IMG/VR virus record: IMGVR_UViG_3300028794_000003
Coordinates: 1-35,418 of that record
Length of the DNA stretch: 35,418 nucleotides
Direction: 5' to 3' (one strand)
Origin: a virus
The notes beneath the pieces are model-generated. The model saw only the letters and a program-made list of their open reading frames with translations. It was not told the DNA's origin and did no database searches. Below are positions 1,116-35,136 of the stretch, piece by piece (within the stretch, counting starts at the first letter, position 1; every line of letters starts with the position of its first letter). Made by a program: the position numbers and the translations under genes.

Positions 1116-1769
1116 ATGGTAAAGAATACGTTAAGCAAATTAATAGACGCGCATCAAGAAAAGAGCGTCAGTGAAGCGAGAAATTATATCGGGGCCTCAG
1201 CTATAGGTTCCGATTGTTTGCGTCAAATTTGGTATGAATTGAAGGGATTTGAAGGCATTGGGGTATCGCCAAAAACTCGCAGAACCTGGGCTATTGGTAA
1301 GAATCTTGAAAAACTTATTATGGAATGGCTTGCAGAGTCCGGCTTATCTGTTGCGGATACTTGGTATGATTTAGTTGATCCAGAGTTAGAATTTTTCAAA
1401 GGGCATATCGATGCTATGCTATTAATGGAGGGGAAGCCTAACGCTATTTTAGAAATCAAAACCGCCAAAGATGCCAGTTTTAAGATATTCGCAAGCAAAG
1501 GCCTCTTTATATGGAATGAACGTTATTATGCCCAGATCCAATCCTATATGGGTATGAGCGGAATACATACCGCCTATATTCTTGTTCTTAATAAAGACAA
1601 TAGTGATATAGCGGACGAGTGTGTAACTTTTGATGCCCACTATTATGAACTCTTAAAACAAAAAGCTTTAATGATTTATAAGGCGCAGGTAGAACCACCG
1701 CGTATAAATGGCTCGCCGCTTTGGTATCAATGTAAACTATGTCAATTTAACAAGGTATGTCATAAATGA
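1116..1769 (+). CDS. Cas4/RecB-type PD-(D/E)XK nuclease with probable Fe-S cluster
   Basis: The 217-aa protein carries GHID (D99) followed by the EIK motif (E113, K115), the catalytic core of the PD-(D/E)XK nuclease fold. One cysteine near the N terminus (C34) and three near the C terminus in CKLCQFNKVC match the split four-cysteine iron-sulphur arrangement of Cas4 and AddB nucleases. It should resect or trim DNA ends to make ssDNA for the SSB and Sak4-like proteins just upstream. Its stop overlaps the next start as ATGA, so it is coupled to the alpha-CTD gene. The start ATG at 1116 follows a CCTTAGGATGA stretch. No CRISPR array or cas gene is present, so a recombination role is preferred over spacer acquisition. 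Confidence 0.85.
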   Translation: MVKNTLSKLIDAHQEKSVSEARNYIGASAIGSDCLRQIWYELKGFEGIGVSPKTRRTWAIGKNLEKLIMEWLAESGLSVADTWYDLVDPELEFFKGHIDAMLLMEGKPNAILEIKTAKDASFKIFASKGLFIWNERYYAQIQSYMGMSGIHTAYILVLNKDNSDIADECVTFDAHYYELLKQKALMIYKAQVEPPRINGSPLWYQCKLCQFNKVCHK

Positions 1770-2329
1770 AAGAAAAAGAAACGAACAAGGAAATGATAGG
1801 ATCCATTGTAGAAGCTTGTTTTATTATGTTCAAAAAAGACATAGAAGTAAAAATACATAGCTTTCAGGATGGTATTTTTCAATTCTCATCTCGAATTACG
1901 GAAGCTAAAAATATGGCTATAAAAAATAGGGAAATTATTAAAGGTCAAGAGTGGCAATTTCAAAATATCCAGGAAGATAGGGAAAATATACGCTTAGCTA
2001 TACTTAATAATAGCAAAGAAATAAATCATTTAAAAAATGAAATAAAAGATATAACAAAAAATGTTATGGAACTGAAAAAGTTATTAGAAAAACCAGAAAA
2101 TATGCTGCATTCAGATGACGCTAAAAATAATATTCTTAAAGAGTCTATTGATTTTTTAGATCTGCCCGTAAGGCCAAGACATTGTCTTTTAGCGGAAAAT
2201 ATAAATACTGTACAAGACTTAATAGAATGCACGAGGCATGACCTGCTAATAACCCCAAATTTAGGAAGAAAATCCCTGACCGAAATATTAGATGCATTAC
2301 ATAGACATGGATTGAAATTAAAGGACTAA
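1766..2329 (+). CDS. Coiled-coil protein with RNA polymerase alpha C-terminal domain (RNAP mimic)
   Basis: This 187-aa protein has a long helical, probably coiled-coil region (about 40-110) and a C-terminal domain (127-185) that aligns without gaps to bacterial RNA polymerase alpha CTD. The DNA-contact residues of E. coli alpha R265, C269, G296, K298, S299 and E302 are all kept (R136, C140, G167, K169, S170, E173); N268 is replaced by H139. The face that touches CAP (E286, V287) is changed to R157 and H158. The acidic sigma-facing positions D258 and E261 remain acidic (D129, D132), while D259 became F130. There is no alpha N-terminal domain, so it cannot assemble polymerase itself. It sits in an ATGA overlap after the nuclease and one base before the sigma-4 gene. 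Likely role: an add-on UP-element reader or a decoy. Confidence 0.85.
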
Positions 2330-2330
2330 T

Positions 2331-2939
2331 ATGAGTGAAATGGATTTTCGCGTAGATATAAAAGTAAGAAATGAGAATATATTACATATAATAGAAAAGA
2401 ATGGGTATAAGACTGTAGGAGAGTTTTGTAGGACAAATAACATAATGAAGCATGTGTCACGAATAGGATCACTAGTCAATTTTAAAGAATCCCCCTTAAT
2501 GACTAATGGAGAATTTTGGCCATTCATATGTGAAATCGCAGATTTATTAATGTGTTCACCTGAGGATTTTTTTTCTGATTCGCAGCTAACAATGGAATTA
2601 GCAACCAATAAGAAGACGCTTCTTATTCGGGAGGCTGAGGTTAAAATGCTCGCAGAAAGCTATAATACAACACCGCTTCTTGAGGAGATAATCGATAAAG
2701 AGAAAGTTAAAAATATGATTGAAGATGCATTAGAAAGTTTAACCCCTAGAGAAAAGAAAGTACTTATAATGCGATTTGGCCTCAACGGCGGCAATGACCA
2801 CACGCTAGAAGAAGTGGCGAATGTTTTTGATGTTACTAGAGAGCGCATTAGGCATATAGAAGCAAAAGCTTTAAGAAAATTAAGGCATCCTAGCCGTAGC
2901 GAAGGATTGAAAGAATATTTAGAAGAAAGTTATTTATGA
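2331..2939 (+). CDS. Sigma-70 region 4 protein with N-terminal XRE-like domain
   Basis: Residues 115-200 of this 202-aa protein match region 4 of the housekeeping sigma factor. They contain the 4.1 helix motif [14 protein letters not shown] and the 4.2 helix-turn-helix [21 protein letters not shown]. coli sigma-70 residues R584, E585, R586, R588, K593, R596 and R599 are all kept; only Q589, a -35 contact, is replaced (H175). Regions 1-3 are missing, so it cannot melt DNA alone. Residues 9-85 look like an XRE-type helical domain. This mix occurs in other phages as far as I recall. It should bind the beta flap or -35 DNA as an appropriator, activator or competitor. It is followed by an ATGA overlap with the next gene and pairs with the alpha-CTD gene upstream. 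Confidence 0.88.
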
Positions 2940-3129: not shown

Positions 3130-3270
3130 ATGAATGAAAACATTTTACTATCAATAGCCATGCTAGGTATTATTTTTCCTTTGGTACGAAAATTGGAGTT
3201 TTCGGCTTTTGAGATCCTGGTATTTTCATTTGGCCTAAATACTGCCGCTAATTTATTTCTCTTAAAATGA
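3130..3270 (+). CDS. Small two-helix membrane protein
   Basis: This is a 46-aa open frame. It begins two bases after the previous stop and ends in an ATGA overlap with the helicase start. Two hydrophobic segments (about residues 5-19 and 27-45), separated by a short charged turn with RK and E, suggest a small helical hairpin in the inner membrane. The AGGGGAATAAAA stretch before the ATG is a plausible ribosome-binding site. Its place in the early operon argues against a classic holin. It could be an exclusion or regulatory peptide. Function unknown. Confidence 0.55.
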   Translation: MNENILLSIAMLGIIFPLVRKLEFSAFEILVFSFGLNTAANLFLLK

Positions 3271-4985
3271 AACAACTTAGGCCGTACCAACAACAAGCAG
3301 TACACGAATGCTGGGAGGCTTTAAAGGCTAATGACGCCCCTGTTTTATTAATGGCTAGTGTGGGTTCCGGTAAAAGCCTTATGCTCGCCTCAATATTACT
3401 TTCTATGCAAAGGTATGAAAAGCGCGCCTTATGTTTAGTTAATAATGCCGAATTAGTGCGAAACAATTGCCAAACATTTAATGAGCAAGGAGGTATTTCT
3501 TCAATTTACTGTGCAGCCTTAAATAAAAAAGATTGTTCGGCTCCTATCGTTTTTGGTACTCCACAATCTGTTTTAAATGGTATAAATAAGCAAGAGCCTA
3601 TAGCGAATATTAACTTTAATATTATTGTCGTGGATGAAGCGCATGCTATTAACTATCTCAATGACAAGTCAGCTTTTATGCGTATCTTACGCCATTATAA
3701 ACATCAATATCCCCCTATGCGTCTATTGGGAGCCACAGGCACCAATTTTCGCTACAAGGGAACAGCGATTGTCGGTGAAGGATGTTTATTCAAAACTCAG
3801 GTGGGGAATATTACCACCGATAAATTAATCGATGATGAATATCTAGTAACGCCTAATTTTGAGGTCGATCCTAATTTAGTTATAGACTTTTCACAGGTAA
3901 AAGTAAAAAAAAATGGGCTCTTTGATCAGAAAGAATTAGCAACGGTAATTGAAAAGAGTGCACGATTAACACAGCTTATATGTCAGCAGTTAATTCATAT
4001 AATGGAGACACAAGGGAGATTTGGGGTATTTATTTTTGCTACTACCAAGAAGCATGCTTATGAGATTTTAAGCCATTTACCGCCTGAACATTCGGCCTTA
4101 ATCGTAGGAGAAACCCCTCATGAAGACCGTACAAAAACTCTGGATAAAGCGCGCTTGGGACATATTAAGTATCTTGTCAATATTGCTATTATTAGTGTTG
4201 GGGTGGATGTGCCTGGATACGATACAGTTGCTTACCTTAGGCCAACAGAAAGCCTCGTATTATTGGTTCAAACACTGGGCCGCGGATTACGCCTTTCTCC
4301 CGATACCTTAAAAAAAGAAGCCTTAATTCTAGATTTTGCCGGCAACATTGAGCGCCATAAAGATTGGGACAATCCTCTGCTGCTTAAAGCATTGAAGCAA
4401 ACCATCGATAAAGATAAGCCCTTAGTCATTAGTTGCCCCTCCTGCCAGGAAATGAATAGCGAATATGCTAGACGCTGTATTGGTGTAATTAATGATAAAC
4501 GCTGCAGTTATTACTTTGAGTTTAAGTTATGCCCCTCCTCAGAATGTGAAACTAAAAACGATATTGCTGCGCGACATTGTAGGGCCTGTGGCTGCGAGAT
4601 AATCGACCCCAATGAAAGGCTATCCCTATCCAAAATGAAAACCAATCTAATTGAAGTGGATGTCCTAGTGGCCAAGTACGGCATATCAGGAACTCAGCAA
4701 GGCTTTAGAGTAAATTGCGCCTATACATGCCAAGATGCGAAGGGCAAAGTTGGCGCTATCTATGAACATTACTCACCAAGCAGCGAAAAAGCATTGCGTG
4801 TTTTCTACGGACAATTCGTTAGATTTCATTGTGAAGATTCCAACAAATGGTACAGACATTTACACAAAAGAGAAAAAGTAGAAGAAATGTTAAAAACCGT
4901 ATCAACGCCTTGCAAATTAATGATTGCACCGCTAGAAAATGGCGCTAAAATCAAGAAGAAAATATTTGTAACCAGGAGTGATTAA
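3267..4985 (+). CDS. SF2 DEAH-box DNA helicase with C-terminal zinc motifs
   Basis: This 572-aa protein has the superfamily 2 helicase motifs in order: a RPYQQQAV Q-like motif (5-12), Walker A SVGSGKS (31-37), DEAH (123-126), the motif III region GATGTN (155-160), GVDVPGYD (312-319) and motif VI QTLGRGLR (335-342). After residue 385 there are cysteine clusters (C390/C393/C404/C413 and C422/C427/C438/C441/C443), probably two zinc ribbons or knuckles that hold DNA. The family is the UvsW/RecG-like phage helicase used to unwind or remodel forks. It follows the recombination and transcription genes in the early operon, and no DnaB-type helicase is present, so it may be the main replicative or restart helicase. 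The start ATG at 3267 overlaps the upstream stop. Confidence 0.9.
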   Translation: MKQLRPYQQQAVHECWEALKANDAPVLLMASVGSGKSLMLASILLSMQRYEKRALCLVNNAELVRNNCQTFNEQGGISSIYCAALNKKDCSAPIVFGTPQSVLNGINKQEPIANINFNIIVVDEAHAINYLNDKSAFMRILRHYKHQYPPMRLLGATGTNFRYKGTAIVGEGCLFKTQVGNITTDKLIDDEYLVTPNFEVDPNLVIDFSQVKVKKNGLFDQKELATVIEKSARLTQLICQQLIHIMETQGRFGVFIFATTKKHAYEILSHLPPEHSALIVGETPHEDRTKTLDKARLGHIKYLVNIAIISVGVDVPGYDTVAYLRPTESLVLLVQTLGRGLRLSPDTLKKEALILDFAGNIERHKDWDNPLLLKALKQTIDKDKPLVISCPSCQEMNSEYARRCIGVINDKRCSYYFEFKLCPSSECETKNDIAARHCRACGCEIIDPNERLSLSKMKTNLIEVDVLVAKYGISGTQQGFRVNCAYTCQDAKGKVGAIYEHYSPSSEKALRVFYGQFVRFHCEDSNKWYRHLHKREKVEEMLKTVSTPCKLMIAPLENGAKIKKKIFVTRSD

Positions 4986-5639: not shown

Positions 5640-5948
5640 ATGGAAAAACAATATCTGCGAAATATCGAGATAGCCTTAAAGGTAGCAAAGAGTAAATATT
5701 CAACGAAAGGAAAACTCTATGCTTCTGTAGCTAAGGAGTTTAATATAACCGCATGTAGAGTATCTCAGATATACCGCCAGATTATGGCTGAGATTTGCAA
5801 AGAAAAATTTAAATTATCATCACTAGATGAGGCGCTACATGATGAGAAATATTATTTTCACGAAGATAGGATTGCTTTCCTTAATGCTTATAAAGAAAAT
5901 TATTTACAATCGTTAGCACTATTGGATGTTGACATAGAAAAAGGATAA
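5640..5948 (+). CDS. Probable helix-turn-helix protein
   Basis: This 102-aa protein contains a segment (about residues 25-48: KLYASVAKEFNITACRVSQI) that fits a helix-turn-helix of the sigma-4/TrfB-like kind. It has a helix, the turn around FNIT, and a recognition helix starting at CRVSQ. The rest is a helical C-terminal tail with many Lys, Glu and Leu. It would be a small DNA-binding regulator or a terminase-small-like protein. Location at the far end of the early operon suits a regulator of the next phase. The ATG at 5640 follows GGAGATGTAACCT. The family is not certain. Confidence 0.6.
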   Translation: MEKQYLRNIEIALKVAKSKYSTKGKLYASVAKEFNITACRVSQIYRQIMAEICKEKFKLSSLDEALHDEKYYFHEDRIAFLNAYKENYLQSLALLDVDIEKG

Positions 5949-34590: not shown

Positions 34591-34639
34591 ATCATTCCTC
34601 TCTTTTTTATAAATATGTCATTATTTGTTATGCCGACTG

Positions 34640-34681
34640 TTGACATACGGGTATTATGAAGATATTATGTCTGTACGTCAA
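34640..34681. promoter_or_regulatory. Face-to-face overlapping promoter pair in a near-palindrome
   Basis: Plus promoter: TTGACA (34640-34645), 17 bases, TATTAT (34663-34668), reading into the early operon. Minus promoter: TTGACG (34681-34676), 17 bases, CATAAT (34658-34653), reading into the Cro-like arm. The two are exactly symmetric about 34660.5, with -35 boxes at the outer ends and the -10 boxes interleaved. The outer arms TTGACATAC and GTACGTCAA form an inverted repeat with one mismatch, likely the Cro operator. Confidence 0.85.
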
Positions 34682-34719
34682 TACCGACGCAGACTATATA
34701 AAGTAAAGAGGTATGTAAA

Positions 34720-35136
34720 ATGTTAAATTTAAACGAAGTAAATGAAAGAGAGTACTGCTTGTCTTTCAGTATTCAAGCGCTTGCTAAAGTAAATCGTCAG
34801 TTAGAAAAGCTATCGGAGAAAAGGGAAGAGCTAACTAAAAATATCATTGGCGCCATAGGCCATAATCATGAAGGCCAAAAAACTTATGAGTATGAGTCTT
34901 ATAAGCTAGAGATCAAAACACCATTCATTTATTCGCTAGACAAAAGTAAATATGAATCTGGTGAGTTTAATATCCCTAGAAAATTCGATCCTATTAAGAA
35001 AACCACTTCTTATTCAATTGACAAGAAATTATGTGATAAATATTTGCAAGAAGCGCCAGAAGACGTGCGTGAAGCTTTGATTGAGATTATTGATAAAAAG
35101 CCTGGGAAGGCTGCTGTACATATTAGGGAGAAATAG
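34720..35136 (+). CDS. DUF7173-like early phage protein
   Basis: A 138-aa protein, first in the early operon, with AAGAGG eight bases before the ATG. N-terminal helix (IQALAKVNRQLEKLSEKREE), NIIGAIGHNHEGQKTYEYES, then a strand-rich part (YKLEIKTPFIYSLDKSKYES, FNIPRKFDPIKKTTSYSIDK) and a KPGKAAVHIREK end. The layout matches the small phage family labelled DUF7173, regularly found before Sak4-type ATPases. It may assist recombination, but its biochemical role is unknown. One base separates it from the next start. Confidence 0.7.
   Translation: MLNLNEVNEREYCLSFSIQALAKVNRQLEKLSEKREELTKNIIGAIGHNHEGQKTYEYESYKLEIKTPFIYSLDKSKYESGEFNIPRKFDPIKKTTSYSIDKKLCDKYLQEAPEDVREALIEIIDKKPGKAAVHIREK

Follow-up and report, generated by a model that had tools for sequence, protein, structure and literature searches.

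A phage gene pair, RNA polymerase alphaCTD and sigma-70 region 4, as a possible two-part mimic of upstream promoter recognition

Known phage takeovers of host RNA polymerase (RNAP) modify, cleave or cover the C-terminal domain of the alpha subunit (alphaCTD) or region 4 of sigma (sigma4), or else bring in a new sigma factor or polymerase. T4 AsiA/MotA, a case of sigma appropriation, and SPO1 gp33/gp34, a partial or split sigma, redirect host RNAP via the region 4/-35 interface. In RNAP itself, alphaCTD bound to the proximal UP site adjoins sigma4, which occupies the -35 element. Cleavage of alpha by Rac is one known phage takeover of host RNAP (PMC7552054). Stand-alone phage proteins with an alphaCTD are already so named in UniProt/BFVD (uncultured Caudovirales phages, Rhodococcus phage Finch, Mycobacterium phage Mithril), and one is annotated in the phage isolate Goe8 (QDP42789). 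Open-access papers yielded no study of phage alphaCTD function or of sigma4-alphaCTD fusions, and such fusions apparently have no published description.

We analyzed a phage locus in which a gene for an alphaCTD protein (P0001) directly adjoins one for a sigma4 protein (P0002). Like the annotated phage alphaCTD proteins, P0001 stands alone and has a non-RpoA N-terminus, but the N-terminal parts differ from that of P0001 and the Goe8 gene has no sigma-annotated neighbor. T4 AsiA/MotA and SPO1 gp33/gp34 would resemble P0001 in redirecting host RNAP, but are not built from alphaCTD.

An alphaCTD on a helical stalk

The window, which is the entire 35,418-base IMG/VR virus record IMGVR_UViG_3300028794_000003, comes from a phage, with terminase, portal, scaffold and capsid genes, and is probably part of a larger genome. 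A large minus-strand block holds the terminase, portal, scaffold, major capsid, head closure, ejection and tail genes. The early block at the left, on the plus strand, encodes a Sak4-like annealing protein, SSB, a Cas4/YqaJ-type exonuclease (1116..1769, +; phrog_1990, E 1.3e-46), P0001, P0002 and then a helicase (3267..4985, +; phrog_16, E 2.7e-75). The P0001 ORF (1766..2329, +) is confirmed as a 187-aa frame between phage genes. Its first 4 bases are also the last 4 of the exonuclease gene, and it stops one base ahead of the ATG of P0002, which is preceded by a ribosome-binding-like AAAGGA. The P0001 gene is predicted to belong to an early operon.

A preliminary description of this DNA had recognized an alphaCTD in the ORF, an identification that an HMM search missing RNA_pol_A_CTD was to count against. 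The search instead gave a clear match of that Pfam family (PF03118) to residues 117–179 (E 5.3e-19; 68.1 bits, cutoff 23.8), within a domain spanning residues 117–185 (2114..2320, +). As claimed, the alignment is ungapped: phmmer against the PDB retrieved RpoA CTDs (E ~1e-12), which are the best sequence matches, gammaproteobacterial ones at the top, and the domain is ~50% identical to E. coli RpoA 249–329. An AlphaFold2 model based on 20 aligned phage proteins (mean pLDDT 92) comprises a helix (residues 2–107), a loose linker (~108–116) and the alphaCTD fold. In a PDB fold search the modeled domain superposed on the E. coli alphaCTD of 1lb2 and 3n97 at 0.8–1.0 Å; the value for 3n97, a crystal structure containing alphaCTD and sigma4 on UP/-35 DNA, is 1.0 Å.

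The likeness to RpoA extends from the fold and the ungapped alignment to the residues that contact DNA: the equivalents of R265, C269, G296, K298, S299 and E302 are all retained, as R136, C140, G167, K169, S170 and E173. Six of the seven residues of the 265-determinant are kept, the exception, N268 (H139), being one whose change to His recurs in other phage alphaCTDs. The differences lie in the stalk, in the loss of the alpha N-terminal domain and in other residues. E286 and V287 are replaced by R157 and H158, which like N268H had been noticed earlier; to these can be added D259 to F130, E261 to D132, K271 to L and K291 to I, and the C-terminus falls short of the position of R317.

In E. coli the alphaCTD surface with D259 and E261 touches R596 and K593 of sigma70. 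This sigma-contact (261) determinant is half changed in P0001 (D259F, E261D), and because D259 is lost the canonical contact with sigma would be weakened, so that the case for sigma binding is weaker than in the preliminary description. R317 is part of the alphaCTD activator surface. The substitutions E286R and V287H and the lack of R317 support an altered CAP-contact (287) surface; they fit the idea of a domain retuned to ignore a host activator, insofar as sequence can be consistent with it.

That the alpha N-terminal domain has given way to a helical stalk was borne out. PF03118 is the sole Pfam domain, and residues 2–107 (1769..2086, +) form a single predicted helix of 106 uninterrupted residues (pLDDT ~95), followed by a short flexible linker. 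Residues 1–109 are free of proline, and their few glycines (12, 36, 60) are isolated. The helical character of the stalk is well supported by the model; its description as a coiled coil holds for part of its length. Residues 50–110 have coiled-coil-like heptads, with a hydrophobic 3.5-residue periodicity above that of shuffled sequences (P 0.004), whereas the periodicity of residues 1–60 is not above shuffles (P 0.29). A dimeric coiled coil is accordingly placed, as likely, in the second half of the stalk. As a functional RpoA P0001 fails, since the N-terminal dimerization/assembly domain is absent and NCBIfam rpoA scores are far below cutoffs. These data support P0001 being a host-derived alphaCTD, stripped of the alpha N-terminal domain and carried on a helical stalk. 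A PHROG 'endolysin' match (E 6e-4) was discounted as probably due to coiled-coil similarity.

An adjacent sigma region 4 gene and a probable AT-rich cassette

P0002 (2331..2939, +) consists of an N-terminal part of ~115 aa and a sigma-70 region 4 (residues 124–199; 2700..2927, +). PF04545 matches residues 133–186 (E 2.9e-19), and 48 of 74 residues (65%) are identical to E. coli RpoD. Only I565L, D566N and Q589H differ among 22 functional sigma4 positions examined. Q589 is a recognition-helix residue that contacts bases of the -35 element; since it is His in P0002, the -35 preference of the protein may be shifted. Pfam, NCBIfam and PDB searches detected no sigma-70 region 2, which serves -10 recognition and core binding, and P0002 is therefore not a complete sigma factor. 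Its N-terminal 120 residues had no match in phage records; a Cro/C1-like helix-turn-helix suspected there by eye was not confirmed by Pfam, and a structure predicted without an alignment was of too low confidence to use (pLDDT 47).

The P0001 and P0002 genes look like a cassette, bounded on the left by the exonuclease gene and on the right by the helicase gene. The helicase is kept in three sister phages (L009, L010 and L011; 68–70% identity), which were reached through it. In L011 an unrelated 118-aa ORF stands between the exonuclease and helicase genes, where both the alphaCTD and the sigma4 gene are missing, and the junction lies directly after the exonuclease, at the same point as in the window. 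Moreover, the two genes have 32.5% GC against ~40% on either side, and only 2.8% of window stretches of cassette size have a GC content as low. It is this joint absence at the same place in one sister phage, together with the unusual AT-richness, that underlies the cassette reading. No close relatives of P0001 or P0002 were found in viral contigs beyond the query's own record, so the evidence for co-inheritance comes from that one sister phage.

In L009 an alphaCTD is attached to an entirely different N-terminal part and encoded elsewhere, after the helicase. From this placement and the absence in L011 we infer that phages of this group have acquired alphaCTD modules and joined them to new N-termini. 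A search for the host via the helicase in genome contigs gave no match. It is of note that the alphaCTD proteins at L009 11667–12164 and L059 5608–6234 have different N-termini and a common C-terminal Cys tail (KCRECIFRE / KCQSCLRKENA); the L059 protein had no close relatives in viral contigs beyond its own record.

alphaCTD and sigma region 4 in other phages

IMG/VR was scanned twice with profile guidance, giving a first set of 49 loci and a second set of 16; none of the ORFs read from them is a full RpoA. PF03118 matched all 26 scanned representatives. The N-termini of these proteins are very diverse. R265 is kept in all 42 distinct alphaCTDs of the first set and E302 in 40 of the 42; both positions lie outside the peptide patterns that guided the scan. 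Most proteobacterial-type phage alphaCTD proteins have no sigma4 nearby.

Some of these proteins contain both domains. Sigma4 is also present in 9 of the 16 second-set alphaCTD ORFs (8 distinct), with independent Pfam support in L070, L078, L082 and L083 (E 1e-8 to 7e-19) and weaker support in L069, L072 and L076. The first set adds a fusion in L040 (E 1e-8) and, weakly, one in L019, whose protein had no match in genome contigs; L003, the same protein as L068, is likewise fused. Single-chain sigma4-alphaCTD proteins therefore number ~10 distinct (L003/L068, L069, L070, L072/73, L076, L078, L082, L083, L040 and the weaker L019). Their layout is sigma region 4, helical linker, alphaCTD, in some cases preceded by a helix-turn-helix, of Cro/C1 type in L078 and L082 and of MerR/excisionase type in L003, L069 and L070. 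In the second set sigma4 is confined to alphaCTD ORFs (9/9, among 271 ORFs of >=100 aa; hypergeometric P ~6e-13, a value inflated because L072 and L073 are identical and the sigma4-bearing L068 was among the four profile seeds).

The sigma4-linked alphaCTDs also differ in their surfaces. Position 259 or 261, on the sigma4-contact surface, is acidic in 10/11 of them vs 22/44 other phage alphaCTDs (P 0.017, uncorrected for descent). Glu286 is absent from 9/11 vs 9/44, and from 8/10 when P0001 is set aside. Common descent confounds both the 259/261 and the 286 trend.

Several database records proved to be bacterial. Six fecal scaffolds labeled 'Bacteriophage sp.' (MT837710, MT837602, MT839913, MT836419, MT837142 and MT835508; L002, L006, L007, L005, L008 and L004) carry a complete bacterial rpoA, pointing to host contamination, and these MT8xxxxx scaffolds were excluded. 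So were alphaCTD records from Salmonella, Listeria, Staphylococcus, Enterococcus and Acinetobacter 'phages', for which rpoA was the annotation or the suspected identity, and an alphaCTD match in a C. difficile 'plasmid' turned out on inspection to be a complete rpoA operon. In L047 (5848–6309), L048 and L056 (4186–4632) a small phage protein with the pattern 'LRDYFAAKAM ... AYAMADAMLKARE' appears to have an alphaCTD inserted within it or set ahead of it, as though the domain had been grafted into an existing fold.

Possible function of the pair

Are P0001 and P0002 a captured domain and a chance neighbor, or do they act together? We consider it about an even bet that they form a two-part phage transcription regulator imitating that half of the RNAP holoenzyme which recognizes the upstream part of promoters (UP element plus -35). 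A two-part mimic is preferred to a lone captured domain because the sigma4 gene adjoins and fusions of the two domains exist in other, unrelated phages. A gene pair here and a fusion elsewhere are a classic sign of joint function, which suggests that the window pair acts jointly on promoters; the match is one of domains, not of orthologs. The fusions share with the window the two domains, the phage setting and a helical linker before the alphaCTD. They differ in being one chain with sigma4 first, whereas the window has separate adjacent genes in the opposite order (alphaCTD, then sigma4) and a longer stalk. Given this reversed order, the window pair is not a simple split gene. Also speaking against the regulator are the lack of sigma4 near most proteobacterial-type phage alphaCTD proteins, the loss of D259, and candidate phage promoters that do not exceed chance.

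In such a regulator, sigma region 4 of P0002 would recognize a -35-like element, with the beta-flap as a possible docking site, and the alphaCTD of P0001 would bind the A/T-rich minor groove directly upstream. The stalk would replace the alpha N-terminal domain, uniting two alphaCTDs as the alpha dimer does. The two proteins would occupy one promoter side by side, presumably in contact, an arrangement like that of the two domains in RNAP. The complex could then recruit or retarget host RNAP to phage promoters, through a sigma4-flap or a sigma/alpha contact, or bar RNAP from host promoters; we slightly favor activation over competition. More broadly, and at somewhat less than even odds, phages may repeatedly have rebuilt the upstream promoter-recognition half of RNAP as a free regulator, fused or in two genes, that reprograms host promoter choice. 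If so, building a regulator from copies of the two modules that read upstream DNA would differ in strategy from the known takeovers, and would offer a ready minimal system for asking whether detached alphaCTD and sigma4 suffice for promoter choice.

The position of the P0001 gene, after Sak4, SSB and exonuclease and before helicase, allows another interpretation, namely that the alphaCTD is a helix-hairpin-helix DNA-binding module of phage recombination or replication and the sigma4 gene is near it incidentally. Phage alphaCTDs do sit on many unrelated N-termini without sigma4, and there are weak helix-hairpin-helix matches (HHH_5, RAD51D_N, ERCC1). We nevertheless judge this unlikely, at perhaps half the weight of the regulator: P0001 is far closer to RNAP alphaCTD than to generic helix-hairpin-helix domains (E 5e-19 vs 0.01), the sigma4 gene directly adjoins and both domains are fused in other phages, and L011 has the exonuclease and helicase without an alphaCTD gene.

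Less probable again is a dominant-negative decoy, in which P0001, with or without P0002, would occupy UP elements or alphaCTD-binding factors and so silence strong host promoters such as those of rRNA operons. Retained DNA contacts and a changed activator surface would suit a decoy, as would the alphaCTD protein of Bacillus phage Goe8 (L084 1959–2591), whose N-terminus is unrelated and whose gene lies close to the end of the genome, on a segment that occurs twice in the record; phages related to Goe8 keep host-takeover genes at such a position. A UP-element decoy has, however, no need of a sigma4 partner. There is finally the prospect that the ORF comes from contaminating bacterial DNA, or is a captured fragment in decay and without function, which the host rpoA genes in several 'phage' and plasmid records bring to mind. 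Here phage genes flank the ORF, and its contig encodes terminase, portal, capsid and scaffold proteins. The ORF is without the alpha N-terminal domain, its frame is intact, its spacing within the operon is tight and its functional residues are kept; genome context largely refutes this reading, and we give it very little credence.

Some further features of the window deserve mention. A consensus scan of 30–35.4 kb gave candidate phage promoters at a level not above shuffles. A 102-aa ORF at 5640–5948 (+) has a weak sigma4/Spo0A-C-like helix-turn-helix and is possibly a third regulator. At 34600–34720 two divergent promoter-like sequences showing dyad symmetry, TTGACATAC ... GTACGTCAA, lie between a small Cro-like minus-strand ORF and a plus-strand ORF at 34720. 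ORFs similar to the Cro-like one occur in L009 and L010, and the sequence of the region looks like a genetic switch.
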